From: Blattamonas nauphoetae
Taxonomy: Eukaryota; Preaxostyla; Oxymonadida
NCBI GenBank assembly: GCA_033064195.1
Contig: JARBJD010000158.1
Location: 101,261-165,260, forward strand
Length of the DNA stretch: 64,000 nucleotides
Direction: 5' to 3'
Below the pieces are notes generated by a model that saw nothing but the letters and a program-made list of their open reading frames with translations, searched no databases and was not told where the DNA came from. Numbering within the stretch: position 1 is the first letter of the stretch; every line of letters begins with the position of its first letter. This document shows positions 2,240-64,000 of this stretch, piece after piece. A program made the translations under genes and the position numbers.

Positions 2240-3240
2240 ATGGGTATTTTTGGAAAGCCCTGGTCGTATCGCTTCACTTGCTCATCGCTGGATTCAGGAT
2301 ATCGCTTAGCAGAGACGAACGAGTTTGAGGAAGTTCAGACGCAGGCGAACTCGGAATTGCTGAAAACGATGCGAATAACACATGAAGAGGTGATTCAGTC
2401 GCATTCGGAGGCTGAAATTCGGACGATCACTCAGAAGAGCGATGCTGGGATCGATGTGAATGCTGAAGGGAAGACAGCAACACTGAAGCACATGATCTTT
2501 AAGCTGGTCCCAGCGACGACGATGAAAACATTCGTGTCTGTGGAAACTGGTGTCCTGTCGCTGGGAAAAGTGACACATTGGAACAGACACAGACACGGAG
2601 CTGGGAGATTCTCTCCACTGAATGATATGGATCAAGGAAGGGAGCACACTGACGCTGGTGGACACACCATTCAAAAAGCTGAGTTTCACTCACGAGACTC
2701 TCAGAACAGTGCTCTACATCGAAGCATGGGGAGTTCTGTCGACAACACAAGGCTCACCATTCATGGAAATCAACTCGAACGCGACCGGATCACTTGTGTT
2801 CCTGGAATCAGATGATTTGGAACGAGACTCGAAGCTGGAGCCTCTGACGTTTTTCTCGTGCGCAACGGAATCTGTTCTTTGGGGAGATGGACGGGGTGGC
2901 AGGAAGTCTGGTGTATTATTGGTATCCCCCACGTCGACAGAAGAGAAGCTGACAGTGAACGACGATGGGGATGATAATGATGTGTGTGGACTGGTGGAGT
3001 TGCCGTGTTCTTCGCTGGACTTTGGATTTGAACATCTGAAGAAAGAAGAGAAGACACTGGAAACAAGTTTCAAAGTGGAGACGATTCAGGAGAAGGCCAG
3101 ACGAGCACAATGGACAATCTGAAGATGGAGGTTGTGGAAGGAACACGAGAAAAGGCGGTTCTGACACTGCAGCTGCATCGACAATCGCGTTCACTGTGAA
3201 GAATGAGGAAAAGCTGAAGATTGGATACAAAATCTGAACG
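2240..3240 (+). pseudogene. Decayed fragment of a beta-helix surface protein
   Basis: Two overlapping plus frames (2240-2815 and 2622-3122) together give the family pattern, but with a frame change near 2580-2625 and no intact start or end. The segment HMIFKLVPATTMKTFVSVE is followed in the other frame by STLTLVDTPFKKLSFTHETL, which reads like a rung of the parallel beta-helix in this surface-protein family. Near 3000 the motif CGLVELPCSSLDFGFEHLK matches the C-G-x-x-x-x-P-C-x-S-I motif at about 8788 and in the minus-strand gene near 23500. This is therefore a broken relict of the same family as the gene at 4535. Minus-strand frames here are shadows. Confidence 0.6.
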
Positions 3241-3419
3241 AGCGTTCTATCAGTTTTGGAAGACAGCACATCGCCATGGCTTGCCAGAATCTCCGTGAAG
3301 ATCTGTGCACTGGATCCTCCCTCGGTGAGGGAGATCAACTCTGATTTCAATTTACTGCAACAATTGCAAAAAATGAGAGGTCACCAACACATTCTTCGTT
3401 TTCCACGTCACTTATTTTG

Positions 3420-3973
3420 ATATGTGGAAAAATTTTTGAAAACTTGGGAGCGTACCCCAGCTCGTAAAAACGAAGTATCTCAAATTTTTTGACAACTTTG
3501 AGAATGAGGAGTACTCTGACTGCATAAATTTGCATTTTTTGTCGGATAGATCATAGATCACAAAATCAGATGAAAATCCGATCTAGGCTACAAAAATGAT
3601 TTCCATTTGGCAAATTCTCTATAATGATCCTTCTTATTCAGAATAAAACCATCAGTCGCTCAATATGATGACTAGAGAGTGAGAAAATGAACAGATGAAA
3701 AAAGTATGTTGTTTGCTCCAGAGAGACAAAATCAAGTCATTAACAACCGAATGATGCTCATCCACAACTATTTGTCCACCAGACGAAAGTTTTTCAAAAG
3801 TGGTACAGGGGCTTGCTCTTACAAGTTTTCAAAAATTTTTCCACATATTAGATGTTTTATAGTGAAAAATTGAGACAATAATGACAGATCTGCGTGTAGA
3901 CTTTCAGATCTGCGTCTAGACGGATCTGCAGATCTGCGTCTAGACTTTTTCGGATCTGAGCCTAGACCTACCC
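3420..3973. mobile_element. Remnant of a long-TIR DNA transposon
   Basis: Bases 3877-3973 contain four direct copies of a roughly 16-bp module, GTCTAGGCGCAGATCT and variants, and end in CTAGACCTACCC. This is the same terminal structure as both ends of the element at 55339-57454. A perfect 27-bp inverted repeat links 3420-3446 with 3822-3848. The matching outer left end is absent, so the copy is truncated. No coding capacity is seen inside. Confidence 0.6.
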
Positions 3974-10500: not shown

Positions 10501-10869
10501 ACAACTGAGGGCCAGCGCTGGAGAGCACCAGAAGTGAGTCGATCGAATGTTGAGAAGATTGATGTTGAGTCAGCGTTGGTGTTCAGCTTGGGATTGGTTC
10601 TGTGGGAGGTGTGGACGGGAGAAGTGCCTTGGAAAGAGATGGACGAAGCGAATGCGTGTCGTCAGAACGAGGGAGGAGTTCAGTCGAACCTGAAACTGGT
10701 TTTGGACACATCGATTCGTGAGTTGATCTCTCGATGCCTTTCGTTCGATCCGAAAGAGCGTCCGAGCCTTCAAGATGTGCTTGATGGATTGGGAGATTCA
10801 GAAGATAAGGTGGCTGAAGAGCCATCGCGTGTTGGGAAAGCGAGTGATGCACTCGACGTCCACTCCTGA
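4535..10869 (+). pseudogene. Giant beta-helix/Ig-like membrane protein with pseudokinase tail, frameshifted
   Basis: The start at 4535 gives a signal peptide (MSMNCFLVILALLLSTQS). A right-handed parallel beta-helix with Ser/Cys-rich rungs follows (residues about 340-560), then several Ig-like repeats of about 85-90 residues, each starting near PPRI and containing G-x-L-x-x-G, then a second beta-helix-like region with the CGGKTRPCKSI motif (about 8790). One membrane helix lies at 9841-9915, then a cytoplasmic kinase-like tail. The tail has RWRAPEV, SLGLVLWEVWTGEVPW and FDPKERPS but no Lys of VAIK, no HRD and no DFG, so it is a pseudokinase. Two lesions break it. A 1-bp deletion near 6875 shows against the paralogue at 30106-33882, causing a stop at 6896. 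An in-frame TAA sits at 9778-9780, after which the same frame continues into the membrane helix. Role inferred: surface receptor or adhesin. Confidence 0.8.
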
Positions 10870-22306: not shown

Positions 22307-23561
22307 TCAGAGTTCGTCGTTGTTCTGCCGAGTTGCTGTTTCTGTCTGCCTTCTCTCCACGCGAAGTGAGCATCCGCTGAACGACGATCCACGACGCGCA
22401 ATCACAGGCACACAACCACCTCCACCAACAACAAGTCCTGCGGGCACATCAGACGACAACGAATGCACAATCTTCCGCTTCGGCGACACAATCGGCATTC
22501 CCAACGAATCGCGCTCCAATTCTTGTTTCGAAAAGGCAGTCTCTTCAAACCAGCTTCCACCAACATCAACCACAACCACGCCCTTCCCCGAACTCCACAC
22601 AACAACACCCCCACTCATCTCCTCTCCTTCCGACTCTCTCAACGGCGAGCTGTTCATCACAATGCAGTCAACAATTCTCACTTCCTTCCGATCCAAAATT
22701 GACTCTCTCCTGATCTCCACAATCAGAACTCCTCCCCTCTTCCTTCCTCCGCTCTCCGTTAACAGTGTCCCACAATCCGAGAACTTACATTTCCTGATTT
22801 CTGTTCTTTCTTGTCCTGTCGAAATCTTAATCAGTCCAGTTCGCTCTCCTCCTCTTGTCTCACTTCGATTCGTCGAAAGGAACACACATCCATCCATCTC
22901 AAATCGAGACGACGCCAGTGTCGACGAGAACGCCACAAGTTCAGCGTTTCGAGTCTCCACTTCGACAAACATGCAATCCGACATTTCCAGTGTCACTTCA
23001 GTCGAGCTCGAACTGCACTTCACAAGTGTCACGTTCGACTCCATCCAAATCGACTTCATCTCAATCTTTGTCAGTCGAAGTGATCCTCCCGACCACAACA
23101 CCATCCCCATCCCAACTCCCTCTCCCTCCCAACTCTCCACCACTCTCACTCCATCCAAGACACACTCCCCAAACCCACTCACAACAACGCTTGCTGTCTT
23201 CGTCTCTCCAACCAGCGACGGGCGTGGAAGTCGAAGTGTCAGTCCGGTCATCTGCAGCGATCCTCCAGCGACCACCACAACTCCTTCCTCCTTCCCTTCC
23301 CTTCCCGCCTCTTCCTCCACATCCACTCGACTCTCTCCTTCAAACAGACCTCTCATTTCGAGTGTCTTCCGTCCAACATGGACCTGAGATCCAAATCGCG
23401 CGGACTTGTGAATCAGCAGAATCACCTCGTTCAATCCTTCTTCTTCTGTCCCTGTCTTCCATCCAATCGCAATCGAGCTGCACGGAGTTGAGAACGATCC
23501 ACATTCCTCTGTTCTGTTCGATCCTCCTTCCGACACAATCACTTCCACAATCGTGGAGTCT
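22307..23561 (-). pseudogene. Surface-protein gene, 3' piece (second beta-helix region)
   Basis: Reads from RDSTIVEVIVSEGGSNRTEE into CGSFSTPCSSIAIGWK, the motif that in the gene at 4535 starts the second beta-helix region. Rungs such as LEMSDCMFVEVETRNAELVA follow, ending at a stop at 22307. No membrane helix or kinase tail follows, unlike the 4535 gene. Its missing 5' half is the fragment at 28140-29180 on the same strand, displaced by a 4.6-kb insertion. The apparent start codon of this frame lies inside the inserted sequence and is not a real start. The long plus-strand frame here is a shadow. Confidence 0.75.
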
Positions 23562-23755
23562 CTTTTAACCAAACCAGTGCCCATCAACTGTTGAGTCTAA
23601 CAACGGGGAAGTGGAAGAATGGGTGGCCCGATCCACCCGAACAAACAAACGAATAAACCATTTTGTCTGTCCTGTTAAAACAAGCTAAAGATTCCCGACA
23701 AGGGGCTCAAGGGCCACAGTGTCAGTTCTGCCCAAGTGGGGGCCGTTGATGGGTC

Positions 23756-24448: not shown

Positions 24449-24774
24449 GCGAATCTGGTGAACACTCTGCCGCTTATCTTGAAGCGAATCTGGTGAACAC
24501 TCTGCCGCTTATCTTGAAGCGAATCTGGTGAACACTCTGCCGCTTATCTTGAAGCGAATCTGGTGAACACTCTGCCGCTTATCTTGAAGCGAATCTGGTG
24601 AACACTCTGCCGCTTATCTTGAAGCGAATCTGGTGAACACTCTGCCGCTTATCTTGAAGCGAATCTGGTGAACACTCTGCCGCTTATCTTGAAGCGAATC
24701 TGGTGAACACTCTACCGCTTATCTTGAAGCGAATCTGGTGAACACTCTGCCGCTTATCTTGAAGCGAATCTGGT
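24449..24774. repeat. 35-bp tandem repeat, about 9 copies
   Basis: The unit contains GCGAATCTGGTGAACACTCT and CTTATCTTGAA. Copies are almost identical, with one G-to-A change near 24713. Degenerate half-units occur upstream (24240-24440). It lies inside the 4.6-kb insertion and may be a subterminal array of that element. Confidence 0.9.
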
Positions 24775-37212: not shown

Positions 37213-39328
37213 TTGTGCCGTGTAATACCCGAACATGTTGTTAAAACCGAACCAATGTCATTTCTGATTTCACTTCGAATGATTCATCATATCTTCGGTC
37301 TCTGAGTCATCTGATTGTTTGAGTGAATAAATGTCATGGAATATGGGATTAATTTCAAAATAAAATGTTCCCACACCTTCCTCGAACGTTGTCTGAGCTT
37401 CATTCATTCATTAGTACCGATCCGTCCTCTCAATCTCCTCGATCTCCGCATGTTGTTCTTCTCGACGGAACAGTTGTTCAGTTGTCACAGTTCAAATTAC
37501 CCTTTCTCAACGGTCTCCCGAGAGCCTCCAAACAACGCCATCTACTAGCATTCTTACGGGGCGAACCTAGAGGGAAAATCGGGAAGAGAAACTATCTTGA
37601 AGAGGACGAATCGCGTGTCCTGGAACGTGAACTGATCGAATTGATTTCCAATGGCTTAACTCCAACTTTCAAGGATGTTGCTGCGATGGTGTGATTTTCC
37701 CCTTTCTTTTTGATGCAAAAATCTAGGCAAGAGCGATTAAAGACAGAAGGACGGTCTTCATCGAAACGAGTCACATAGATCCAAGTCGGACGTGGGTATC
37801 AAGGTGGGTCCTCGCTCATCCCAAGTTCAGGGCTTTCAAACCAATTTTGATGGAACTTCGAAGGCAGAATTGTCTCACAAAAAGTCACGTCGCTCCGTTT
37901 TTCGCCAATCTCCAAAAGTTGGTGGATGAAAACCACTATTCGCCGTCTCTCATGTTTAACTTTGACGAGACATCGCTTATAAGCACGCAGTACGTGTATG
38001 AAAAGAAAGTAGGATTCAGTTCAGATCTTGTAGCGTACACAGTTCCCCTTCCTTGGTATTCAGCTGCACCATGTTGTTTTCATCGCAGCGGACGGTGAAG
38101 CCCTGCCTTCACATCTGATTTTACCTGCCAAGATTGACAAACAGCACTATTCTGAATATTTCCCTTCCCGACTGACAATACACAATTCTGCGAAGGGATG
38201 GATGAATAAACAGATATTGGAGGACATCCTACTGAACTATACCCTCAAAGACATACAAAGAAGAAAAGAAGAAATTCATCGACCAAACGATCGGGCATTG
38301 CTAATCTTTGATGGGCATTCAAGTCGTGTTCAGCCCGATCTGTGGAAGTCCTTGTCCACCCAGGGTGTCGACTCAATATGTCTCCCCTTCAAACTGTTCA
38401 TCAATACTACAACCATGCGATCAAGGGATAAATGCGATCTTCAAACGCAACCTCCAAAACTTCCACCGATCCCCTCGAAGACAAAACAATCAACAGAACT
38501 GATCCCTTGGCTAAAGGTTGTTCAGTCAGCTGCTCTGAACGCCCTGGTAAATGCTCAGGCTGTGCAAGAATCTTTTCGGACAACAGGCATCTATCCCATG
38601 AACCCGGCCACCGTCACAAACAAACTCCGAGAAGGCAATGACACCGAGGAGAGGAGACGCGGTTTCCACTAGGATCCAACATCCTTTCAGAAGAGTCTTT
38701 TCAGCAAGCATGGAGGCGATACCTTCGAATGCCGACGAATGAAACAGCTGAGGAAGTGGAACCGGCTGCTTCGATCTCGATTTCTTCCGAAATCGATGAG
38801 TCAGATCGAGAACTTGACATCTTTCAAATCAATCTCAGAAAGCGTCTCCAGTTTCCGTTTGGACAAGTCGACCAAATTGACAGTTCGGATCACGATCAAC
38901 CAATCACTGATCTTGATTCTCAACTCGAACTTCCGCAAGAACCTGTCTCACCCCTTTCTCCAAGTCACGTCTTTGTCAAGCGAGAACTAATCCACGACGA
39001 CATTGAAGATGATCTGGCCATCGACACCATACAGCCACAAAAACGAAAAACCTCCACCAAACCGCCTCATCGGATTCGCACAGCTCCCAAATGGATGCTT
39101 GATTTCGAATAATGCACTTCATGACACTGTAAGTTATCAACAAGAGTTTCCATAATCTTGGAGTGAACTGTAAAGGATAAGACGAACCAATGGTCAGATC
39201 TCTCAGAAGTCGTCAAAATTGACAAATTTATGAGCTGAAGGACACCAGACAAGTGAAGGGTCGCCATTGTGATGGACCAGCACATTTGTTCGGTTTGAAC
39301 AACAAGTCCGGTTTTCACACGCGACTAT
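37213..39328 (+). mobile_element. pogo-like (Tc1/mariner superfamily) DNA transposon
   Basis: Flanked on both sides by TA (37211-37212 and 39329-39330). Imperfect terminal inverted repeats of about 45 bp: the left reads TGCCGTGTAATACCCGAAC, with TTGTTAAAACCGAACCAATG further in; the right, inverted, reads CGCGTGTGAAAACCGGAC with TTGTTCAAACCGAACAAATG. It carries a DDE transposase on the plus strand. It sits precisely inside a SPRY repeat, so the original empty site can be read from paralogues. Confidence 0.85.
37365..39112 (+). pseudogene. pogo-like DDE transposase with intron, frameshifted
   Basis: N-terminal part KIGKRNYLEEDESRVLEREL followed by a helix-turn-helix-like region; a 38-nt intron at 37689-37726 (GTGTGATT...ATCTAG) joins FKDVAAM to ARAIKDRRTVF. 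The catalytic triad is visible: FNFDETSL (about 37955), LLIFDGHSSR (about 38300) and LQPCDQGINAIFK (about 38410). The frame changes near 38045, 38385, 38480 and 38645, so the copy is dead. The acidic tail at 38729-39112 ends APKWMLDFE. It acted as the transposase of the surrounding element. Confidence 0.8.
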
Positions 39329-49269: not shown

Positions 49270-50796
49270 ATGAATCTAATTCGAAATACCTCTCCAGACG
49301 TCATATTCTCGAGATTCGGATTCACTGGTCTCTCGTCTCGTCAAAAATTGAATGAGGCCCACTCAATTTATCAAAAATCGCAATTATCCCGCAACGGGGT
49401 TGTTGAAGGGAAACTAAAGAGCCTCGACGTGATCCAGACACCGCCTCGCGAATATCAACCACATAAATTCAGCCAAATCGTGATGGACGATGAAGATGAC
49501 GGTTGGAGGCAACAATCCTACACGACTGCTTCGTCGGCAGCATATGGCGCGAGATTGGGGAAGAAGCCAGCCTCCCAACAGCGAGTCGAAACCAGTCCCC
49601 AAAAATCAACGCCTATTCGGGACCCGCCCATCATCATTCGACCACCGCTGGAGCCACTCCAACCTGAGCTCGATGATGCCCCACTTTTGACCGAAGATTC
49701 GCCAGTTCGCAGTTTTCACTCGTCGCCGCAGAAGAGCGGCCTTGAAAGCTCAGTCTCGATTCAGAATCCTCTCCTTTTGACAATAACCTCTGACACATTC
49801 GCAGGGCCTCTTCCGAATTCAAACTGGGTGATTCCAGGTCACTTGTTGATTGGCGGGCATCCGGGATCAAACGCGTCGCGACTTCTGCAGCACGGCGTGG
49901 ATATGTTTGTGAACACGATGACACCGAGCGAAGCAAAGCATGTCCGGACGAATGTGGGGCAGTATTTTGAGAGTGCAGTGCGGATTATTCGAGAGGACCA
50001 GATCGAAGTTGTGAAGGCTCAGATGGAGTACGAACGAGCAGTGCAGCTCAACGCAGTGAAGAAATCGAAGCTCCCCGCATCAGCATTTGCGATGAAGAAG
50101 GGGAAGAACTTTTTGAATGACGCACAGACTGCGAAAGCGCCATCTGAAGTGATCATACCATCACGAAAATACAAACAGGGTTTGGATGAACTCGCCTATC
50201 TGCCGTTCCCGATAGCCGATGGGTCTGCCCCAACGGAGAGAGATTGCTGTGATCTTGTGGAATGGCTGTGCAACGCGATTGTGGAACAAAAGAAGTGTGT
50301 GTTCCTCCACTCTTTGGAAGGACACGGGCGAGTGGGTCTCCTTGCTGGTCTTGTGCTTGGTTTGCTTCTTTTCCGTTCATTCTTCTCAGCACGTCTGTTT
50401 CACGCTGCCCCAACACGAATTCTGTCGTTCCTCCAACGCGCACACAAATGCCGTGTTGATTCACCAGAAGTTGCGTGTCCAAGCACACACGAACAGAAGA
50501 TGCTCTTGTACAGATTGGCATCGGTGTTTGACCAGCCCATCACAGAAACTCAGCGTCTGCAGAGTTGCGACAGAATCTCCGCTCGGATCACCGAAACTGG
50601 ACTGTCAGTGGCGAAGAAACTGACTGCACAACAAACAAGACCTCAATCGGCTGCCGTTTCTTCGAAATCTTCATCACGCGGGAATCGCTTGTCTGAAACG
50701 ATGAACTCGAACGTGTCGATTGTGTCTGCGCGGAATTTCCCTTTTTCTGCGTCTACTCTGAGTGGATCAAGGCCTCAGACCGCCTCACGACACTAA
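49270..50796 (+). CDS. Dual-specificity-phosphatase-like protein, catalytic Cys replaced
   Basis: 508 codons from the ATG at 49270. The N-terminal 180 residues are disordered and Ser/Pro-rich (SPQKS motifs). The phosphatase-like fold starts at WVIPGHLLIGGHPGSNASRL, continues with FVNTMTPSE, and after a Lys-rich insert has AYLPFPIADGSAPTERDC, the loop that carries the general acid Asp in CDKN3-type and related phosphatases. The P-loop reads HSLEGHGRVG where active enzymes have H-C-x5-R: the Cys is Ser, the Arg is kept. It is therefore predicted inactive, perhaps a phosphate-binding regulator. A Ser-rich tail ends at 50796. The codons of this tail are duplicated at 52820-52875. Confidence 0.75.
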   Translation: MNLIRNTSPDVIFSRFGFTGLSSRQKLNEAHSIYQKSQLSRNGVVEGKLKSLDVIQTPPREYQPHKFSQIVMDDEDDGWRQQSYTTASSAAYGARLGKKPASQQRVETSPQKSTPIRDPPIIIRPPLEPLQPELDDAPLLTEDSPVRSFHSSPQKSGLESSVSIQNPLLLTITSDTFAGPLPNSNWVIPGHLLIGGHPGSNASRLLQHGVDMFVNTMTPSEAKHVRTNVGQYFESAVRIIREDQIEVVKAQMEYERAVQLNAVKKSKLPASAFAMKKGKNFLNDAQTAKAPSEVIIPSRKYKQGLDELAYLPFPIADGSAPTERDCCDLVEWLCNAIVEQKKCVFLHSLEGHGRVGLLAGLVLGLLLFRSFFSARLFHAAPTRILSFLQRAHKCRVDSPEVACPSTHEQKMLLYRLASVFDQPITETQRLQSCDRISARITETGLSVAKKLTAQQTRPQSAAVSSKSSSRGNRLSETMNSNVSIVSARNFPFSASTLSGSRPQTASRH

Positions 50797-50943
50797 GTCA
50801 TCATTTTGCTTCACTTCACACGAAACTCTTGATTTCTTATCAATGCTGGGTCGATCAAGTTCATTTCGTTCTGTTTTCAGAGCACGTTTTCAAAACCGTC
50901 ATAATCCACCCTCTGAGTATCGAGCCCAATCGTCTTCTGAACG

Positions 50944-51728
50944 AATGGGCCATTCATCTTCTTCATTGAGCGAACCGAAGACAAAATCGAATCCAACCAT
51001 CGCTGTGCAGACGCTGAATGAGATGAGACCAACACAACTACTCGCATTGCCTCCGCTCCTGTTCGCATTTCGTTCTCATTTTGCAATCGAGAACACCACA
51101 GTCACTCGTCCAAGCGAAAACGTGGATTCTAAAGGCTCTTTCAGCAACAGCTCTGTTCTCCTGAATACTCCAATCTCACAAGGAATTGTGTCGGTCACTC
51201 TGACGATTCTCACCCTTCCCAGAAAAGGTCGCAATTTTTTCTTTTTAATCATCGTCAGCTTCTTTCGGAGTTCTTAGATTTTGTCTTCTCGACTCAACAG
51301 CTCCTGTCCCCAAATTGCGTGAAACTGTTGGTTGTGATGTTCAGGGTGTGTTTCCCTCAATTTCATATCTTCAGATTCTGTTTCTCTATCTTCCATCAAT
51401 GGCAAGCTCTATTCCCTCACCCCATCCAGGCCATTCCAGCATTCAGCTAAGGTCCACCACTACAAACCGAAAGAAGGGGATTGTGTGCGGATGGAGGTGG
51501 ACATGGACTCAACACCTCGGAGACTCCAATTCTTTGTGAATGGACAACAGGGCCGCTTTCTCGTTTCTGGTCTTCCCCCATCTGTCAAAATCGGAGTATG
51601 TTCCTCTTTTTTTCTTCTCTTTTCAGTTCACCGTGTGGATTGCTGGAACATCAATTCGAATCGACAGAATCGTCAAACTAACTCAGCCAACCCCAATCAC
51701 ACCAGAAATGAGAGAACTGTGGTGGTAG
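50944..51728 (+). CDS. B30.2/SPRY-domain protein, four exons
   Basis: Starts MGHSSSSLSEPKTKSN. Three tiny introns are required: 51228-51258 (31 nt), 51346-51374 (29 nt) and 51596-51626 (31 nt), all GT...AG. Spliced, it reads ASFGVLRFCLLDSTAPVPKL, then DSVSLSSINGKLYS, then GDCVRMEVDMDSTPRRLQFF and FTVWIAGTSIRIDRIV, ending LWW with TAG. These are the SPRY strands, with the W/G-rich core and RMEVDMDS near the ligand face. Paralogues follow at 53023 and 54703. No kinase domain. Role inferred: protein-protein interaction module. Confidence 0.75.
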
Positions 51729-51739
51729 TCAGACTGAAA

Positions 51740-52740
51740 CACGGACGTTCCATCTGACAGCTTCTTGTGGTCTTCCACACAAGCATAATCTGTTGCCGAT
51801 GCCTGTCGCAACACTCCAACATTCTCCACAATCATCATCGGTGTCCAGTCCGAAGGCTCTCCATCATTCCACACACTCTCTCTGCTCTCCCTTTTCAGGG
51901 TGATGCATGAATGATCTATTCACTTGATGCAGCATGTGTGAATGGAATGACAAGAATGACAAAAGTGGAATTCGAACCGGCCAGGGACATCGCACTGGTC
52001 AGCCCACACATCAGCACAACATCATTTCGGATGATCAGTGTCCGACATTGCGTTTGCATGAAGCACATCATTCTGCTCTCCCAACGAAACGAGACATCGA
52101 CATCACATCGCAACTAGTCCCTCCGCATCGCCAGTCGGGGTGATTATGTACTGGCTCATCACCAAAACAGCATTCGTTGCATTTTTCTCGTTGGACTTGT
52201 TCTCCATTTCTGCGACAAAGCCAAAACAGACCGCGGAATTGTCGTCGATGCCTGAAGTCAGTGAAATTGTGCAAACCACATCCAGACGAAGTTGAGCATG
52301 CAAAAATGAAGTACAAAGTTGGGATGGCCCGAATCAGCCCTTACAAACGCGAACAAGGAACAATGGACGATCGGCTCAAACAGATCCTGGACAATCCAGA
52401 CAACAACATTTACCGAGCCATCTCGACCATTTTTGTATTTGTGGGGCAGCTGCGGTTCCCAAAACATGAAGAAAGTCGTTTTGGATAACTTGACAACAGA
52501 ACAGAAGAAGAAAGACGAACAGTGCTGTTTCTGTGGTCACCAGAATATGAACAGAGAAATGGAAATCAGCCAACACACATAATTCCCACAATCGACGTCT
52601 GACTCGTCTAACACAGGCAAGCGACCAGAAAGAGGACCAACTTCGAAAAGCGTGTCGACTCCACAGAGCATCCCGTGATCATCTCTCCAGAATGAAAAAA
52701 CGAGTCACAGAACCTGTTTTCGTGTGTCGTTTCCCTTTTT
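51740..52740 (+). pseudogene. Decayed gene shared with 34.2-36.0 kb
   Basis: Broken frames containing YSLDAACVNGMTRMTKVEFE, HPDEVEHAKMKYKVGMARIS and a C-x2-C...H-like stretch (EQCCFCGHQNMNREMEISQH). The same order of blocks occurs after the SPRY exon at 34139 and, in part, after 57619. Frame changes near 52040, 52250 and 52480 prevent a product. The ancestral protein may have had a zinc-binding segment; I do not recognise it. Confidence 0.5.
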
Positions 52741-52814
52741 GTTGCCAGGGTTGCCTCACTCTGCAACGAGGATGACAACCAGATTCTGACTGAGTTGCTG
52801 TGTGTCAGAGCTGG

Positions 52815-52910
52815 ATGTTCCTTTTTCTGTGTCTGCTCTGAGTGGATCAAGGCCTCAGATCGCCTCACGACACTAAGTCATCATTTAACTTCACTTCACA
52901 CCACACACTT
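52815..52910 (+). repeat. Duplicated 3' end of the phosphatase-like gene
   Basis: Nearly repeats 50735-50830, including the codons for STLSGSRPQTASRH (with Thr changed) and the stop. The next SPRY gene follows at the same distance. It marks the boundary of a tandem segmental duplication of about 2.1 kb. Confidence 0.8.
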
Positions 52911-53022
52911 TTCTTTCTTTTATGTTGGGTCGATCAAATTGTGTTCGTTCTGATTTCAGAACGCATTTCAAAACCATATCAATTCGTCCTCTGAGCATCA
53001 ACCCCAATCATCTTCTGATCGA

Positions 53023-53808
53023 ATGGGTCATTCATCTTCATCATTGAGGAAAACGAAGACAAAATCGAATCCAGCCATCGCTGAACAGACGCAGAGTAGG
53101 AATGCACCAGCCCAACAATTCACTCTACCTCCTCTCCTGTTCTCATCTCGTTCTCTTTTTGCAATCGAGAACACCACAATCACTCGTTCAACGAAACCTC
53201 CAGATCGACCTAGATATACGAACAACTGCCCTCTTCTCCTGAAAACTCCAATTTCCCAAGGAATCCTGTCAGTCACCATCACCGTTCTCTCCCTTCCTCG
53301 CCGCCGTAGTTTGTCATTTTCTTCGTCATCGTCATCAGATCATTTCGGAGTTGTCTGGTTTGGTCTTCTAGACTCAATTGCTGCTGTCCCCAAATTTCGT
53401 GAAGCCCTTGGATATAATGTGAAGGGTGTGTTTCCCTCATTTTCATATCTTCAGATTCTGTCTCACTCACTTCATCGATCGGAGATCTCTATCGCAACGC
53501 ACCATCAACGGGACACGAGGAACAATTTGCAGCCTGCCACTCCGACTTAAGAGAAGGAGATTGTGTGCGGATGGAGGTGGACATGGAATCGACACCTCGA
53601 ACAGTCCAATTCTTTGTGAATGGACAAAGTGGTTACTCTTTCGTGTCTGGTCTTCCGCCATCTGTAAGAATCGGAGTATGCTTCTCTTACTTCTTTCTCT
53701 TTCAAGTTCACCCTTTCTGGTCAAGGAACATCTTTCAGAATCGACAGAATCACCCGACAGCGAAGACCAACTCCAATCTCCCGAACAATGAGAGAACTGA
53801 GGTGGTAA
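53023..53808 (+). CDS. B30.2/SPRY-domain protein, paralogue 2
   Basis: Starts MGHSSSSLRKTKTKSN. Introns at 53426-53454 (29 nt) and 53676-53706 (31 nt), and a possible 33-nt intron at 53306-53338 whose removal keeps the frame. Spliced it reads FGVVWFGLLDSIAAVPKFRE, DSVSLTSSIGDLYRN, GDCVRMEVDMESTPRTVQFF, SFVSGLPPSVRIG and FTLSGQGTSFRIDRIT, ending LRW with TAA. No lesion is seen, so this is probably a functional copy. The region downstream to 54700 contains no clear gene. Confidence 0.75.
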
Positions 53809-54702
53809 AGAAGTTATCCTCTTCAAGATTCGTACGGACCTTTGCAGTGTGTGTGATGCAGTTGAGTCTTCGGAACTTGCAGGGCTCTAATGCTCACACT
53901 GAACGGACATCGTTCTTTCTCAGCAAAACTGCTATTTCGCGGAAGATTGTGCCCCGAGTGAGATGGACCCACTTGAGCTTGGATTGTACAGTGCGAGTGA
54001 GAAAACCAACAGAAGATTCAAGATGGCAAAACAACAACTCCGATTTCTCTTCTATCTCTTCCAATTATCGGTTAAATCGGTGTGTGTGTTGTTCTCTCCG
54101 CTATTGCCATCGATTTCTCGATTCTGCACTTTTGTGTGTCATTCCTGCCTTTCTTCATCTTGTCTCTCCGATTCTTCTTTCCCGTCAGATTCGATGGATC
54201 TTGCAGTGATTTCGCCACGTGTGTCCATTCTCTGTTGATTGAGGTGACGGAGATGACATGGAAGGCGAGAGAACAGATTGTGTGAAGGACTGAGAAAGAG
54301 TGGAGCAGTGCTCGCGTGGACGAAGTGTGAAGTGGGGATTGCAGCTCGGAAGTGTGGGAGTGCCATTTGGGAGCACATTCACACCGACAGTTTTGATGAG
54401 ATGCCCGACATGCGACGGACAGGCCTCGCTTTGACGTCTCGTCCATCTCCGAAGACACCAACCGACTCGTCTGCTCTTCACCCGACGTCAACACTCACTT
54501 GGAATTGTGAGACTCGACATTCAAGATTAACGCTGTTCCCGCCAGCGATACCCCACTCGCACCATGTTTTCATTCCACTTTGTTCCTAATCATTCACACT
54601 CCCACATCCAACCTCATTCTTCATTCCAATCATGAGTGAGTCTCAAGAAAATGAGAATATCATCATATAATCATCCCACCTCACCATCAGTTGTCGATCC
54701 TG
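53809..54702. other. Spacer, nothing firm
   Basis: Short frames on both strands overlap here without recognisable motifs. There is one Cys pair (RCPTCDGQ, near 54400) but no convincing exon structure. Treated as intergenic. Confidence 0.4.
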
Positions 54703-55338
54703 ATGGGCATGATCTGTCCATTGTTCTTCTTTCGGCGAATAACACTTCAACAACAACCTGAAATCACTGAACCATCCATGAGTGTGAGTTCACCGGCACA
54801 TCTGATTAGATTACCTCCTCTCCTGTTCACATCTCGATCTCATTTTGCAGTCGAGAACACCACAATCACTCGTTCAAGCACTAACGTGGATTCTCAAAGA
54901 TATCTCGACAACAGCTCTGTTCTCCTGGAAACTCCAATCACAAACGGAATACTGTCAGTCACTCTGACGATTCTCTCTCTTCCCGAAATCGTTTGTTTGT
55001 CATTTTCATCGTCGTCAGTCTACGCTGGTGTTGTCTGTTTTGGTGTTCTCGACTCAACAAAACCCGTTCCCAAATTTGGTGATGCCCTTGGATGGGATGT
55101 TGAGAGTGTCTTTTTTTCTTCCTCATTTCTTCAGATTCTGTTTCTCTCTTTTCCAATACTGGAGATCTCTTTTGCAACACACCATCCACGGGAGACGAAT
55201 CTCGATTTGATCACTGCCACTTCTTGTTGAGGGAAAGGGATTGTGTGCGGATGGAGGTGGACATGGACTCAACATCTCGAACAGTCCAATTCTTTGTGAA
55301 TGGAAGAGCTGGCCGCTGTTTCGTGTCTGGTCTTCCAC

Positions 55339-57454
55339 GGGTAAGTCTAGGCTCAGATCTAGAAAAGTCTAGGCGCAGATCTGCAGATCGGTCTAGGCGC
55401 AGATCTGAAAGTCTACACGCAGATCCGTCATTCTTCGCCTTGCTTTTGCTTCCATATCACATTTTCGACATCCGACATCTAAATTTCGATATCATTTCTT
55501 CTTTTTCGTTCACTTCTCACCTTATCCCGTTTTTTAGACTGTTCTCACAATGTTCAAACACTCCTTGGGTTGATCAAGTCTTCTCACCGACTCAACGAAG
55601 AATAACGCCTGGATGATGGTTCACTAGCAAATGTATGTCATCTAAATCCTATTTCATTCTCATTTTCTGCCTTATCGATCCCACAGCTCTATGATACGTT
55701 TGACGTTCCGCACACCGTCTACGAAGACATGTGCGTTGATACACATTTTCTCCCATATCAACTGATTGCAAGAACTAATGGGTTTGCTTTTTCGTCTTTT
55801 CTTCCCTTTTTGTTGGTTCTTCATCGATGTCAGCTCAAACTCTTTTCACAAAAGTGCCAACCCTTCATCCTCGTTCTTCTCGCCCTTCACGAATCTTCAA
55901 TTTTGTATTCGTTCCCTTCTGGACATTATCAGGGGACGAAAGTGTGTGAAAATTACCTATAGTTTTCAGGAGATCACTTCCGTCTCGATCTCGATTCATT
56001 CTCCTCGCTGTATGACTTCCCTCTGTTCATCTCCTCTCTGTTCTGTTGTCTTCATAGATCAGGAAACTTCAGATCCATTGTTGGTTCATTGGAGCCTTCG
56101 ATGATCACGAAACACCGTTGTTCACCTCGCTCCGTATTAAGTGGGGATCCTCACTCGAATTCGCATCTACATCTCCCACACGATTCATCTCCCCGTTCTG
56201 ACGGCCGACGAACCAAATCCTTCCTGAATTTGTCCATTTCACATCACTCAACATTGTGATCCCATTACAACGTCTAACATCACGTTCACAATTGTAACAC
56301 CATGCGCAACGAATTTGTCCAACTTATCAATTAAAAGAACCACAAGACGAGTCAATTACTTCGGAATTGTCTTCAGATTTGCCGTTCGATCTCGACATTG
56401 GACTACAACCATCATCACCATCAAGATCACAGTTCCTCTCCAATCAGTACGATCCCCGAATGGTCTCAGAGGGAAAAACGGAGCAGGACATGTTGAACAA
56501 TCATTATTATTTGCAGAAATTCGACTAACATCGCCACTGTTGAGACGGAGGAATGGAATAGCAGATACGAAGATAAGAGGTGAATTTCCATGTATGCACT
56601 TAGAATCGTCAACAAAGACCACTTTTCATTTTTTGTGCTTTTTGTTATCTTCTTCAAGTTCTTACAGCCTTTGATCTTTCTTTTTCTCAGTTTCGCCCAA
56701 TTCCGTTGATGTACCAAATTATTGTTATTCGGATCATCCGCACAGTAACGTGGAGTCTGCAAACACTACTCAAACCGCTAGTAGATGCCATTCTGATTCA
56801 GAAGAAGTCAGGACAAAGCATGGAAGAAAAATTGAAAGACAAGAAGAGAGAAGAAGAAACAAGTAAGAAAGGGAACAGAAAATGAGTGCGTCGCTCGATT
56901 CTGGCTGACTATGACCAACCGATTGACGAGTATGACAGCTTCCACAACAATCTTCAATTCTCCCTTCATCAGTATTCTCCTCGTCTCTCCTCCCTCCCAG
57001 TAGCATTAAATTCCTTCTCACCACCTCCTCCTCCCATCATCTCGCTCAATTTTCCCACTATGCCTTCTCCCTCCTCTCAATCACCTCTCTCCGCATCCTC
57101 TGCTCATATGGATGAGACCAGACACCTCTAAGTTGTTCGTTCATTTCCAGCCTTCTTACACGTCACGACAAACCAACGTGATTGAACAAATTGCTTCAAA
57201 TGACCACTTCCTCCTTGATCAACCCAGGACATGTTTGAACATTGGGAAAACAGATGGAAGAATGTCAAAAAGTGAGAAATGAGCAAAAAAAGTGGAAATG
57301 ATGTCGAAATTTAGATGTAGGATGTCGAAAATGTGATATGGAAGCAAAAGCAAGGCGAAGAATGACGGATCTGCGTGTAGACTTTCAGATCTGCGCCTAG
57401 ACCGATCTGCAGATCTGCGCCTAGACTTTTCTAGATCTGAGCCTAGACCTACCC
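55339..57454. mobile_element. Mutator-like element with 240-bp inverted ends and captured exons
   Basis: Inverted terminal repeats 55339-55578 and 57214-57454: the outer 150 bp are almost identical, the inner part about 80%. Each begins GGGTAAGT or GGGTAGGT and contains four copies of GTCTAGGCGCAGATCT or variants, perhaps transposase binding sites. The 9 bases GTCTTCCAC flank both sides (55330-55338, 57455-57463), as expected for Mutator-like elements. No transposase is recognisable. The interior instead carries plus-strand exon-like text, so it resembles a Pack-MULE. Strand is not defined. Confidence 0.8.
55579..57213 (+). pseudogene. Gene-like exons inside the Mutator-like element
   Basis: Segments that look like exons: LYDTFDVPHTVYEDMCVDTH (about 55690), ending at a good GT donor near 55781 with an acceptor at about 55832; a segment near 55980 (FRLDLDSFSSLYDFPLF) after a 28-nt intron-like GTGTGTG...TTTTCAG; LPFDLDIGLQPSSPSRSQFL (about 56380); and 56700-57131, including PIDEYDSFHNNLQFSL and a Pro/Ser-rich end. 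I do not recognise the parent protein. Frames do not join cleanly, as expected for a captured, decaying fragment. A real nested gene cannot be excluded. Confidence 0.4.
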
Positions 57455-57639
57455 GTCTTCCACCATCTGTCAGAATCGCAGTATTGCTTCTCTTTTTCTG
57501 CATTCTCCTTTCAGTTCTCTGTTTCTGGTCAGGGAACTCGTTTCCGAATCGACCGAGTTGCTGAACAAGAAATATCAACTCCAATCTCCCGGTCAATGAG
57601 AGAAATCAAGTGGAATTGAAAACGGGACATGGATGCTCA

Positions 57640-57876
57640 TTCTGACTCCTCCATTTGTCCGTTTCTTCTCTCAACTATGCCCAATCCACGATGTCACTCG
57701 ACTTTTCTGAATGACGTCCCTGAATACTCACAAACCCAATCCAACCGAAGTGGAGCATGCAACAATGAAAGACAAAGACAGAATGGACAGAACCAGCCCT
57801 CACAAACACAAACACGCAACAATCGACGGGAAACACAAAAGCCGATTCTGATCCGTCCAGACCACAACATGGGTCA
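57640..57876 (+). repeat. Third copy of the SPRY-gene downstream flank
   Basis: 57730-57860 resembles 35540-35650 and 52260-52410, with shared text encoding NPTEVEHATMKDK-like and MDRTSPHK-like pieces. It is cut off at 57876, exactly where the 240-bp inverted repeat begins. Confidence 0.6.
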
Positions 57877-60800
57877 TAGTGGTGTCACCAATCGGTGTCT
57901 TGTCACCAATTGGTGCTTTTCTCATATTTGATAGAAGAGATAGTGAATATGAACTGTGTGAAGTGATAGAGTTAATTGATACCCCCTTCACGAGAAAAAC
58001 ACGAAATACTAGTTGTGTGTCCAGATCATGGGTTAGATCATCTTTCGACATGAAAAAGAGGACAGATTAGACTTTATTCACATCATATTTTGCTTCTTTC
58101 ACTTTATTTAGCAATCTTTAGACGTATATTGACATGATTCTTATTGATTGAAATGATGAAATGAAAAGATGGGCAGATCGATTTCTGTTCCTCGTCGGAT
58201 GTGCTGTTGTCAGCTTTGAACGTGAAGACTGGGTACGTGTCAAGACTGAGCACGAACAGCTGTCTCATCAGGCGAAGGATGTCAGAAATGTAAGGACGAA
58301 AGGCGACGATGTTGCCGAGGAGGAGATTGAGGGAGAGGATCCCAGCTGCCTCTTCGCCCTCATCCAGCTCTGATTTCACTTCATCTTCGAGAGCCTTCGA
58401 GACCGGTTTGGAGATGGCTGAGACAAGTTGAAGGATGACGTGGACGAGTCGTTGGAGGAGCAACTGTCCACAGATGTCTGCGAGGCGATGTGTCGTTGGT
58501 TTGCTCATCGTTCGGATGAGGATGGAGAGGAGCGAGTGCACTGCCTCGGAGAACTAGGATTGGACAGCAAACGGCTTGTCTGATATGGGGCTGCTGGAAG
58601 ACGGGTAGCTTGTGAGGTGGACGGAGGGATGAGGGTGCTGATGTAGGAGAGCGAGGGAGGGACGAACTGGGAGTTGGGAGTGCTCAGGTTGGAGGTGTTA
58701 TTCGCCAAAGATTTCTCCACTCTGCTCAGAAGCTGGTTGGATTGCGATTGGATGAACATGCTCCATGTACTCTTCGTGTCTGCGTCTTCGAAGAATCTGG
58801 ATTCGCCCAGAATGTTGAAGAGGGAGAGGCAGAAGAAGCTGAGAATGGACGAGAGAGCCCTTGTGTGTGTGAACGCCCTCATTCCAGCAGAAGCGATTGG
58901 GAGAGTGAGACGAGCGAGAGAAGCGTCGTTCCAAGTGTCTCGTTGTCATCAAGCGAAGAATTCACAGCCAACCTGAACTGCGTCTCGAAGTCCTAGAGCA
59001 GCGGTCACGCGGTGGCTGCGATGGGAGAGTGAGAGGAAGTCAGCGAGCATTTCCAACATCATGTCGACTGTGATGACCACTGTGGGGAGACTCAACTGCT
59101 CAGTGAAGTTGTATGCGGGAAGGATGAAATGGAGTGAGTGTGATGTCGGGTTTGTGTGGAAAACATGAAATAACTCCGAACATAGCATCTTTGGCTGTCA
59201 GTTGTGGTTGTACTGTGTCTTCTTTCCATCGTCTGCCACAAGACCGTCTCCAGACTGTACCCAATCTGCTCTCTCGTTCACAACATCTCGATGTTCATGA
59301 GTGGTGGAAGAACCGACGAGATCACATCCCTGTTCAGCGCGGCGTTGGGCAACCCGATGTCAGCGGGAACATTTGGTGTGGGTGGATGAGAGAAGGGAGA
59401 GGTGACGGACCGGACCTGTCGATAACTGTCGCGCAATTCGCTAGATATTCGTTGAACAACGTCTGTCACATATTGTTGTCGAGTGCAGGAAGTTAATAAC
59501 ACACGAACAGTCAAACGAGGTTTGGATTTGCAGCGAGGATCCTGATGTCGTCGCTGTGATTGAACTGAAATTTCTCGAAAGTGTCTGCAGTCGCTAGAGG
59601 TGTAAGAAAGGTGTATCAACTGAGGAGATGAATGATTGGCGAATGAAGGCTCCAGTGGATTGAGGAGAGGAGAGTGGACTGAGCGGGGAGGACGTGTTCG
59701 GCACGAGAAGAGTGAGAGGGAGAAGATCAGGGGCGAAAGTGAAGGGATGATGTCGAGAGAGGAAGCAAGACGAGAAATATGTGTTGAAGAATATGCTGTC
59801 GTAAAACAGATGTCCATGCGTGTCGACAAACACTGTCTGGTGTTTGGGTGCTGGGGGCGAAGAAAGGAGCATGTTCTCAAACTGGACCGAAGTGGAATCG
59901 TTGAGAAGATGTTGTGAGAGAGGTGTGGATGAACACTGATTTCTGCGCTTTTCTCTCGTCTCTCACATCGATGATCTTATCTGTCGTCGAAGCAAGGTCA
60001 TTCATGATCTGCAGGGGAATCTATTTGAGCGGCTTCTTCGGGCAGGCTTTGGCTGACGAGATCACGTCGACAAGTGACACTATTCAATCGTCCTTCGCTT
60101 TGCTTCGCACGACGTGGTTGTTGCTGTGCTGTTTGTCGTGCAATTTCTTCTCGCTCCGCGTGATGAGCACAAAGGGAACAAAAAACTTCCGATGAAGATC
60201 AAACTGTCTCCGAGTTTCATCGTTCTTCACTAACAACGTTTCGACTTGAAAATCGTCGAGTGAAGGAACAGAGAAGGACGTGATTGGTGATGAGTGTGCA
60301 GTTGAGGTGAAGGTGAGGATGGAAACAGGACCCAGTCACATTCGAATGAACACGTTGTTTTGTGACGTCACAACAACATGGGTAGAGAGTGTTGGGGGGA
60401 CAGGATACTCACCTGTCATGATAAGATGAGAGAAGGTGTGAGGATGTAGATTTCCAGAACAGCGGTGGATGTGACATTAATGAAAGCTGGCAGATAAGGA
60501 GGGGAACATGGAAGAACGAAGCAAAAGCGAGTTTAGGGTGTTTTGGATGGATGGTGAAGAGTGAGACCAGTAATGGATGTGATTGAGAGGGCGGATTGCT
60601 TCAACCAGAAGAGCAAGATCATTCCTTCAAAACAGGAGTCTGTCTGTTTGAGTTGATGTGAGTGTCGGAGAGTTGTGAGATACGTGATTGGAACTCATCG
60701 ACAGGAAAGTCGACGGGAATTTTTAGCTCTGGGGTTCCGTGGAGAGAGAGGGAGATGATCATTGAGTTGAACAAACACAACGCGGGTTGCCGCAATTGTG

Positions 60801-61190
60801 ATGATGATGAGAACGGTTCGAATGATGAGGTGAAATGGAGGTTTGACAAAATGTCACCTTTCTGGAAATGGTGATATGATGATCCCATTATATGACAATG
60901 AGAGAAATTAGACAGGAAAATCACGAGAATAGGCAGTATTTTAGTCTCATGATTGCAAAATAAAGTGAAAGAAGCAAAATATGATGTGAATAAAGTCTAA
61001 TCTGTCCTCTTTTTCATGTCGAAAGATGATCTAACCCATGATCTGGACACACAACTAGTATTTCGTGTTTTTCTCGTGAAGGGGGTATCAATTAACTCTA
61101 TCACTTCACACAGTTCATATTCACTATCTCTTCTATCAAATATGAGAAAAGCACCAATTGGTGACAAGACACCGATTGGTGACACCACTA
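57877..61190. mobile_element. 3.3-kb block bounded by 240-bp inverted repeats
   Basis: 57877-58116 and 60951-61190 are essentially perfect inverted copies. Outer ends read TAGTGGTGTCACCAATCGGT and its complement. The flanking bases are TCA on both sides (57874-57876 and 61191-61193), a possible 3-bp target duplication. Within each arm, GGTGTC/TTGTCACCAATTGGTG forms short subrepeats. The interior carries minus-strand gene-like exons and no recognisable transposase. Near-identity of the arms suggests recent movement. Confidence 0.65.
58104..60600 (-). pseudogene. Minus-strand multi-exon helical gene or fragment
   Basis: Helical exon-like pieces in order on the minus strand: FDLHRKFFVPFVLITRSEKK (about 60190), QYVTDVVQRISSELRDSYRQ (about 59460), LPTVVITVDMMLEMLADFLS (about 59085), FEDADTKSTWSMFIQSQSNQ (about 58790) and ICGQLLLQRLVHVILQLVSA then LLLGNIVAFRPYISDILRLM, ending in frame at 58104 inside the left arm. 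The style suggests the C-terminal part of a large alpha-solenoid protein, perhaps nucleoporin-like, but I cannot name it. It lies wholly inside the inverted-repeat block, so it may be a captured gene. Confidence 0.4.
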
Positions 61191-61860
61191 TCAATATTTT
61201 TGACATCATAGAAAAGTTCGAGATCACCCCTTCAAAACCTCCTCTCCGCATTCTTTTTTTCAAATTTGCTGTTAAATCTCAAATAGCTCTTTCTCACCTC
61301 CATGAACTGATTACATGTGTTTTTTTCGATCTATTCATACCAGTAGACAAATTGGAGGTGGATTACAAAACAATATGGGTTGATCGTCATTTGGTGGACT
61401 ATGTACCGTCTACCATCTTCCTCACTGCACTGGATGTGGTGTTCCGGGCGAATGTCTCCTTCACCACCATCTTACCTCTTCTCTCATTCTCTCTCTCTTC
61501 TGTTTTCCCTCTCTTCGCACGATTTTGAAGCTTGGATGAATGATTTCAGTTTTATTCACTTTTGGTGGTGTATTATCTCAAACAAGTGATTTTTCTTTAG
61601 TTTGTTTTCTCAAGAAAGTGTTAATTGTGAGTTGAAAACAACAAGATTCATGGAAGACACAATTAAGATGGAAAGTGCTGATGAAAGAAAGAGTGGAGGG
61701 AGGCGGAGGCTCGAGGAGGTGAGTTTGGATGTCGCAGAAGGAAAAAGGGAGTCTATCGGAAGGAGGTGAGTGGAGGACGAGGGAGGTGAGTGGAGGGCGA
61801 GGGAGGTGAGTGGAGGATTAGAGAGGGGAGGGGAGAAGTGCAGAGGACGAGGGAGGCAAG
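61191..61860. other. Spacer before the minisatellite
   Basis: Contains a plus frame (about 61190-61528) reading FDIIEKFEITPSKPPLRILF and DKLEVDYKTIWVDRHLVDYV, which may be a gene remnant continuing from the sequence left of the inserted block. From 61640 the text becomes G/A-rich and imperfectly repetitive (GTGAGTGGAGGACGAGGGAG). No product assigned. Confidence 0.35.
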
Positions 61861-61867
61861 TAGAGGT

Positions 61868-64000
61868 GAGTGGAGTGTGTGGTGACGATGGGGAGCGAAG
61901 TGGAGTGTTTGGTGGCGATGAGGAGCGAAATGGAGTGTTTGGTGGCGATAGGGAGCGAACTGGAGTGTTTGGTGGCGATGGAGAGCGAACTGGAGTGTTT
62001 GGTGGCGATGAGGAGCGAAATGGAATGTTTGGTGGCGATAGGGAGCGAAGTGGAGTGTTTGGTGGCGATGGGGAGCGAAGTGGAGTGTTTGGTGGCGATG
62101 GGGAGCGAAGTGGAGTGTTTGGTGGCGATGGGGAGCGAACTGGAGTGTTTGGTGGCGATGAGGAGCGAAGCGGAATGTTTGGTGGCGATGAGGAGCGAAA
62201 TGGAGTGTTTGGTGGCGATGGGGAGCTAAGTGGAGTGTTTGGTGGCGATAGGGAGCGAAGCGGAGTGTTTGGTGGCGATGGGGAGCGAAGTGGAGTGTTT
62301 GGTGGCGATGAGGAGCGAAATGGAGTGTTTGGTGGCGATAGGGAGCGAACTGGAGTGTTTGGTGGCGATAGAGAGCGAACTGGAGTGTTTGGTGGCGATG
62401 AGGAGCGAAGTGGAGTGTTTGGTGGCGATAGGGAGCGAACTGGAGTGTTTGGTGGCGATGAGGAGCGAAATGGAATGTTTGGTGGCGATAGGGAGCGAAG
62501 TGGAGTGTTTGGTGGCGATAGGGAGCGAACCGGAGTGTTTGGTGGCGATGAGGAGCGAAATGGAGTGTTTGGTGGCGATGGGGAGCGAAATGGAGTGTTT
62601 GGTGGCGATGGGGAGCGAAATGGAATGTTTGGTGGCGATGGGGAGCGAAGTGGAGTGTTTGGTGGCGATGGGGAGCGAAGTGGAGTGTTTGGTGGCGATG
62701 GGGAGCTAAGTGGAGTGTTTGGTGGCGATGAGGAGCGAAATGGAGTGTTTGGTGGCGATGGGGAGCTAAGTGGAGTGTTTGGTGGCGATAGGGAGCGAAC
62801 CGGAGTGTTTGGTGGCGATGAGGAGCGAAATGGAGTGTTTGGTGGCGATGGGGAGCGAAATGGAGTGTTTGGTGGCGATGGGGAGCTAAGTGGAGTGTTT
62901 GGTGGCGATAGGGAGCGAACCGGAGTGTTTGGTGGCGATAGGGAGCGAAGCGGAGTGTTTGGTGGCGAGGAGGAGCGAATCGGAGTGTTTGGCGGCGATG
63001 GGGAGCGAAGTGGAGTGTTTGGTGGCGATAGGGAGCGAACCGGAGTGTTTGGTGGCGATGGGGAGCGAAGCGGAATGTTTGGTGGCGACGGGGAGCGAAG
63101 TGGAGTGTTTGGTGGCGATAGGGAGCGAAGAGGAATGTTTGGTGGCGATGGGGAGCGACGCGGAGTGTTTGGTGGCGATGGGGAGCGAAGCGGAATGTTT
63201 GGTGGCGATGGGGAGCGAAGCGGAATGTTTGGTGGCGATGGGGGAGCGAAGTGGAATGTTTGGTGGCGATGAGGCGAAGTGGAGGTGTTTGGTGGCGATG
63301 GGGAGCGAAGTGGAGTGTTTGGTGGCGATGAGGAGCGAAGCGGAGTGTTTGGTGGCGATGGGGAGCGAAGTGGAGTGTTTGGTGGCGATGGGGAGCGAAG
63401 TGGAGTGTTTGGTGGCGATGAGGAGCGAAGTGGAGTGTTTGGTGGCGATGGGGAGCGAAGTGGAGTGTTTGGTGGCGATAGGGAGCGAAGCGGAATGTTT
63501 GGTGGCGATGGGGAGCGAAGTGGAGTGTTTGGTGGCGATGGGAGCGAAGTGGAGTGTTTGGTGGCGATGGGGAGCGAACCGGAGTGTTTGGTGGCGATGG
63601 GGAGCGAAGTGGAGTGTTTGGTGGCGATGAGGAGCGAACCGGAGTGTTTGGTGGCGATGGGGAGCGAAGTGGAGTGTTTGGTGGCGATGGGGAGCGAAGC
63701 GGAATGTTTGGTGGCGATGGGGAGCGAAGCGGAATGTTTGGTGGCGATGGGGAGCGAAGTGGAGTGTTTGGTGGCGATGAGGAGCGAAGCGGAGTGTTTG
63801 GTGGCGATGGGGAGCGAAGTGGAGTGTTTGGTGGCGATGGGGAGCGAACCGGAGTGTTTGGTGGCGATGGGGAGCGAAGCGGAATGTTTGAGTGGCGATG
63901 GGGAGCCGAAGTGGAGTGTTTGGTGGCGATAGGGAGCGAAGCGGGAATGTTTGGTGGCGATGGGGAGCGAAGCGGAGTGTTTGGTGGCGATGGGGCGAAG
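61868..64000 (+). repeat. 30-bp minisatellite, about 70 copies, continues past the window
   Basis: The unit is GGAGCGAAGTGGAGTGTTTG plus GTGGCGATGG. Variation is confined to a few positions: AAG/AAT/AAC before TGG or CGG, GTG/ATG before TTT, and ATG/ATA plus GGG/AGG/GAG. In one frame it encodes GERSGVFGGD repeats, in another MECLVAMGSE; both stay open for hundreds of codons because the unit lacks stops in them. Single-base indels near 63245, 63280, 63540 and 63890 shift the frame. I treat it as a minisatellite; a repetitive surface protein is possible but not supported by a start region. Confidence 0.85.

Follow-up and report, generated by a model that had tools for sequence, protein, structure and literature searches.

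What interrupts the last of three tandemly repeated genes at this locus, and what kind of mobile DNA could have placed it there? The window, by which we mean the whole stretch of 64,000 nucleotides that was analysed, contains three tandem paralogues, and the third of these is the host gene of an element of 2116 bp. The element occupies positions 55339–57454, lies within an exon, begins with GGGTAAGTCTAGGC and ends with GCCTAGACCTACCC. Both of its ends are abutted by exact copies of a 9-bp target site duplication on the forward strand, GTCTTCCAC, located at 55330–55338 on the left and at 57455–57463 on the right. The same nine letters were found two further times in the window, at the unrelated positions 45820 and 51770. 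The other two paralogues preserve the empty site. Paralogue 1 reads GTCTTCCCC at 51570–51578 and paralogue 2 reads GTCTTCCGC at 53650–53658, both on the forward strand and both uninterrupted. Together they give GTCTTCC(C or G)C at the insertion point, and an alignment of the joined flanks of the host gene with the paralogues passes straight across it. The first-pass annotation had placed the insertion with its duplications at 55330–57463, which is exact to the base. It had also reported the 9 bp repeated on each side and an empty site fixed by two intact paralogues, and both claims hold. A transposon has thus inserted at this locus: its inverted ends are long and modular, the 9 bp that it duplicated are mapped, and two paralogues retain the empty site.

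The host gene can be read through once the element is removed. Its 5' part, as read from 54851, occupies 54851–55338, and its 3' part, at 57464–57619, contains a 34-bp intron and is open to the stop codon, both on the forward strand. After removal of two short introns, the reading across the joined flanks, starting at 54851, stays open to the stop at 57619. It shares 65% identity with paralogue 2, and as in that paralogue the frame is kept where the flanks meet. In paralogue 1, a stop remained under the introns chosen. Left unspliced, the host frame continues for about 92 codons into the element before it reaches a stop. Over the part that was read, from 54851, the host gene therefore looks undamaged except for the insert, which suggests that the insertion is recent. 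Throughout 50721–57619, the introns of the paralogues appear very short (29–34 bp as marked) with pyrimidine-rich 3' ends. The host had initially been called a SPRY gene, a label that we could not confirm. A spliced paralogue matched 0 Pfam families, a phmmer search of the PDB returned 0 matches, and a profile built from two sequences gave four weak matches in the PDB (best E 0.027), none of which we take as real. By eye, the C-terminal strands of the host protein do fit SPRY.

The element is bounded by a left terminal inverted repeat of 240 bp (55339–55578, forward strand), which starts with GGGTAAG, and a right terminal inverted repeat of 241 bp (57214–57454, reverse strand), which mirrors the left and ends on the forward strand in CCTACCC. 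Aligned by blastn, the two ends share 89.6% identity over 241 columns (E 1.6e-88), in line with the 240-bp inverted repeats described at first pass. This identity is unevenly distributed. In the outer part of the ends, 157 of 160 positions are identical. Counted in successive 40-bp segments from the outside inward, the ends agree at 39/40, 40/40, 40/40, 38/40, 25/41 and 34/40 positions, the last two values marking an inner portion of about 80 bp that is poorly matched.

Each end also carries four 16-bp modules. On the left these start at 55345, 55367, 55391 and 55411 (55345–55426, forward strand), with a spacing of 22, 24 and 20 bp; on the right they form a mirror image, starting at 57367, 57387, 57411 and 57433 (57367–57448, reverse strand). 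When up to three mismatches are allowed, the module has 12 matches in the window, as compared to a mean of 0.24 and a maximum of 2 in 100 shuffles, and the earlier count of four modules per end is thereby substantiated at a level far above the shuffles. These 12 matches consist of four in the left end, four in the right end and four at 3877–3973. The CCTACCC heptamer has two occurrences in the window, one at the right terminus (57448–57454) and one at 3967–3973. The predicted DNA fold of the module array is unremarkable (z −1.56).

The modules at 3877–3973 belong to a third, unpaired relative of the element ends, which lies on the reverse strand, has its CCTACCC terminus at 3967–3973 and is absent from the first-pass annotation. 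Over 97 bp, its identity is 90.7% with the left end and 91.8% with the right; it then diverges, and its inner side is unrelated. The module-bearing outer 97 bp is conserved between elements, and the inside is variable. An unrelated inner side behind a common end suggests a group whose members have different interiors, and the same pattern of common ends and heterogeneous interiors is described for the MULE derivatives of Aedes (PMC5225508). No partner of the unpaired end was detected in 1–3876, either by a module search with up to three mismatches or by blastn, so the end is either truncated or has its counterpart beyond the window. Of this group, a single complete copy is known in the window, together with the unpaired end.

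The surroundings of the unpaired end contain further repeats. At 3420–3848, beside it, lies a 27-bp perfect inverted repeat with 375 bp between its arms and possible TA borders, which resembles a small MITE. This repeat (3420–3446/3822–3848) was considered as the missing partner and rejected, as it contains no module; it is a separate small repeat. In the region to its left, 60 open stretches were listed; the 10 of these that were scanned gave only weak Pfam matches under the cut-off, the best being ANGEL2_N (E 0.0072). By eye, 2201–3240 resembles a broken fragment of a large protein family that is also found at 4535–10869 and 22307–23587; the two stretches of 2201–3240 that were scanned gave no Pfam match.

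Which class of transposon do these features indicate? We interpret the insertion as a DNA transposon of the cut-and-paste, non-autonomous kind and, with a probability of about 0.7, as a Mutator-like element (MULE) with composite, Foldback-like ends such as those of Tm1 and Muta1. MULEs are characterised by duplications of 8–11 bp and by unusually long ends (PMC6446971). The exact 9-bp duplication falls within this range, the ends of 240/241 bp show the second feature, which is typical rather than universal in MULEs, and the four 16-bp modules in each terminal inverted repeat constitute the short tandem repeats of a composite end. In the structural features tested, the element therefore appears to behave as a composite-end non-autonomous MULE, one that falls outside strict Tm1 membership and has candidate status only as a Pack-type element.

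As no transposase was recognised inside the element, movement in trans is most likely. A transposase supplied from another locus of the genome would bind the four modules of each end, pair the ends, cut at GGG...CCC and insert the element with a 9-bp stagger. The module spacing of 20–24 bp, about two helix turns, would suit several protein subunits side by side. At the host gene itself, the element entered an exon of the third tandem paralogue and duplicated 9 bp of its target. Module recognition by a transposase may find its best precedent in Galileo, in which the THAP domain of the transposase binds to sites that lie in some tandem repeats of the long ends; for Foldback and Phantom elements, the same source states that transposase binding to the tandem repeats is untested (PMC3688188).

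The Mutator-like assignment had already been proposed at first pass, and the length of the duplication, the length of the ends and their modular build all fit it, but they do not single it out, because Merlin fits too. A non-autonomous Merlin element would have the same anatomy and the same movement in trans, driven by an IS1595-type transposase. Merlin ends start with 5'-GG and measure 24–462 bp, with duplications of 8 or 9 bp (PMC8101967), and an element that starts with GGG, ends with CCC and has 240-bp ends and a 9-bp duplication fits this description. Moreover, among 24 metamonad genomes Merlin was found solely in Preaxostyla, with more than 100 copies in the oxymonad Monocercomonoides, and tandem repeats are also present in some Symbiodinium Merlin copies (PMC8101967). 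We nevertheless regard a Merlin origin as improbable. The Merlin elements of Monocercomonoides, which comprise at least seven families, all have 8-bp duplications and mostly ends of 23–29 bp (PMC8101967), as opposed to 9 bp and 240 bp here, and tandem-repeat ends of the present kind are the rule in the MULE families of Aedes (PMC5225508). Composite ends arose in several superfamilies (PMC3169594), and Galileo belongs to the P superfamily (PMC3573991, PMC4168063), which raises the alternative of a Galileo-like Foldback element with a P-type transposase, or of a member of another superfamily with long modular ends. This alternative seems very unlikely to us, as Tm1, a Mutator/Foldback family, has the same terminus as the right end here and in most cases also duplicates 9 bp (PMC3169594).

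Parts of the window were also searched for a transposase. Seven of its long frames gave kinase and phosphatase matches in Pfam and no transposase. Ten further open stretches were scanned from a list of 55 that have at least 110 aa and lie outside the assigned frames, a list that includes stretches of the element, of a second element described below and of the left end of the window. These ten yielded one DDE_1 fragment, one kinase and no MULE or Merlin transposase. The DDE_1 fragment is an open stretch at 38034–38669 that matches PF03184 above the cut-off (E 2.4e-6) and is likely a transposase remnant. We take it to be of the pogo/Tigger type. In a collection of viral contigs, the module, written as a 17-base pattern, had one lone match, in contig L001. 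We consider this match to be due to chance, because no module array with up to three mismatches was present in 13,694 bases of this 84,606-base contig and because 14 of 200 shuffles also reached one match. Rfam models returned 0 matches in the window at gathering scores, and no tRNAs were found in it.

For the interior of the element (55579–57213, 1635 bp), no relative was found in the window. When searched with Pfam in all six frames at E up to 1, it gave 0 families, which agrees with the earlier statement that it holds no transposase. When the element was masked and the remaining sequence of the window was compared with the interior in six frames, no match was obtained at E up to 0.01, and the sole DNA match to the rest of the window with E < 0.01 was a pyrimidine-rich stretch of 31 columns. 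We then turned to coding potential. As training set for a codon model we used 14 long open frames that were assumed to be coding (AUC 0.85; 52% of their windows recovered at 5% false positives). One of 20 interior windows scored above the threshold, which 1.2% of the interior's own shuffles also pass, and the median score of the interior (−0.201) is slightly higher than the mean of the shuffle null (−0.268). The test is weak, since it passes just 1/6, 1/6 and 1/5 windows of the three host paralogues, the last value being that of the interrupted gene. A hexamer model was set aside because it separated the training genes from shuffles too poorly. The longest stop-free stretch of the interior, at 148 aa, is not unusual (p 0.16). 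Given these results of the codon test and the open-stretch analysis, the exon-like text that had been read into the interior is not established.

The same holds for the proposal that the element is a Pack-MULE, carrying captured host exons. The working definition of a Pack-MULE requires an interior that matches coding genes (PMC8903248), and an interior for which neither Pfam nor the remainder of the window provides such a match gives it no support. A strict Pack-type element, in which one or more pieces of host genes would have been captured between the ends and carried about, overlaps with our preferred reading, and we hold it to be possible, if on balance unlikely. The interior with 0 Pfam families in 6/6 frames lacks a recognisable transposase, as expected of the Pack type; the unrelated inner side behind the shared end at 3877–3973 suggests differing interiors; the codon-score median lies slightly above the interior's own shuffles; and some interior stretches resemble spliced exons by eye. 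Weighed against this are the absence of any Pfam family in the six frames and of any relative elsewhere in the window, the single window in 20 that passes the codon threshold (in a weak test that passes 1/5 for the interrupted gene) and the ordinary length of the longest open stretch. Remains of a parent element, filler and a piece of a host gene are all candidate sources of the interior, and we leave the choice between them undecided. A more far-reaching scenario, which we consider doubtful, is a gene-capturing Pack-type Mutator-like family in an oxymonad-like flagellate. Here a common module-bearing end of about 97 bp would mobilise a variety of unrelated interiors, host exons among them, and insert into tandem gene families, and the left terminus could even be a splice donor for chimeric transcripts. 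A related suggestion, that the element acts as a large intron and leaves the host protein nearly normal, is compatible with any of the other readings and has, in our view, very little likelihood. The left terminus does contain the splice-donor-like sequence G|GTAAGT, with the donor GT at 55341, and the right end offers 21 AG acceptors, four of which keep the frame by length, three of these four leading into the host exon without a stop. Yet about 7 of the 21 would be expected to keep the frame by chance, the introns marked in these genes measure 29–34 bp, and the donor looks accidental because GGGTAGGT stands in its place in both the right end and the unpaired end. As the frame is lost at those acceptors that are richer in pyrimidines (57388, 57434), intron-like use is possible and not indicated.

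Other repeats lie close to the element or elsewhere in the window. A second, unrelated inverted-repeat element directly adjoins at 57876–61191. Its arms (57876–58123 and 60944–61191) are 98.8% identical over 248 bp, and both of its outer borders show TA, as left by a TA-targeting element. Of its 47 listed open stretches of at least 45 aa, 20 were scanned, and their Pfam matches were all weak, with none above the cut-off. From 61869 to 63995, nearly to the end of the window, a 30-bp unit is repeated about 71 times (91% matches) as a minisatellite that is open in more than one frame, and 24449–24774 contains 9.3 near-identical copies (99%) of a 35-bp unit.

As it stands, the locus presents an ordinary insertion of a known element type, precisely mapped. 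Its value lies in a non-autonomous transposon, apparently of recent arrival, whose ends, duplication and empty site are fixed to the base, in what appears to be a protist genome rich in gene families. From the mapped ends, the rest of the family, its transposase and the sequences it carries could be sought throughout the genome. Should the interiors turn out to be host exons, this lineage would be added to those in which such elements capture genes.

Gene capture by elements of this kind is known from plants, as the first-pass annotation had remarked, but it is not confined to them. About 20% of the Muta1 derivatives of the mosquito Aedes hold sequence that aligns with host genes (PMC5225508). 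A survey of 100 animal reference genomes reports 370 Pack-TIR cases and no Pack-MULE (PMC8277862). In the relevant passage of PMC12477816, Pack-MULE is used merely as an analogy. Plant Pack-MULEs resemble the present element in being non-autonomous, in lacking a transposase and in their Mutator-type ends; they differ in that captured gene fragments are demonstrated in plants and not in this element (PMC8903248).

Among oxymonads, DNA transposons make up 4.52% of the Monocercomonoides assembly, where they are counted as a class (PMC8767320). The word 'Mutator' does not appear in the main texts of two oxymonad genome papers (PMC8767320, PMC10703272), the second of which makes no mention of DNA transposons in its main text. 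The Merlin elements of Monocercomonoides share with the element described here a 5'-GG terminus and, if the window is from an oxymonad such as Blattamonas, as its gene style suggests, also an oxymonad host (PMC8101967). In Trichomonas vaginalis, the TvMULEs are likewise Mutator-like elements of a metamonad (PMC2725143, PMC6446971). Unlike our element, they have ends of 20–38 bp and carry a transposase, and their duplications are given as 9–11 bp (PMC6446971) or as 10–14 bp (PMC2725143, in part of its Table 2). Closer in dimensions is EMULE-Ei1 of Entamoeba invadens, a protist MULE with 187-bp ends and a 9-bp duplication, which differs in carrying an ORF for a putative transposase (PMC2725143).

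The overall design of the element is reminiscent of Tm1 from root-knot nematodes (PMC3169594), whose transposase is of the Phantom/Mutator type. Tm1 produces mostly 9-bp duplications (8–10 bp in 45 of 53 elements), has ends built of short tandem units (13–15 bp) and consists mostly of non-autonomous copies with differing interiors. Its authors likened Tm1 copies with a histone hairpin to Pack-MULEs. The highly conserved Tm1 motif A2, CCTACCC, is identical to the right terminus of the element and to that of the unpaired end; as a match of 7 bp it is short, and the left terminus GGGTAAG is one base off. Motif A1 (CGGTTAA/CGGATAA) is absent, the other terminus being GGGTAAG, and by the strict Tm1 criterion the element thus falls outside the family. 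There are also differences in the construction of the ends (PMC3169594). Whereas the two 7-bp terminal motifs of Tm1 differ from each other and lie outside the inverted repeat, the termini here are part of it. Unit sequence and spacing are distinct as well, Tm1 having mostly 14-bp units and our element 16-bp modules every 20–24 bp. An autonomous Tm1-A is known, in contrast to the element here, for which no autonomous relative is known (PMC3169594).

A comparable picture emerges from the 14 MULE families of Aedes aegypti, which include Muta1 (PMC5225508). The transposases of these families are known, unlike that of our element, Muta1 being active in yeast and Muta5 not, and Muta1 and Muta5 carry nine repeats of 12 or 15 bp as opposed to four 16-bp modules here. 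In their general architecture, the mosquito families and the present element agree. All 14 have 8–9 bp duplications, 12 have ends longer than 100 bp, 10 of those 12 contain tandem repeats of 9–15 bp, and their derivatives have the ends in common and not the interior. The element type is therefore already known, with an architecture as in the mosquito and nematode elements and a design that matches elements of insects, worms, plants and protists.
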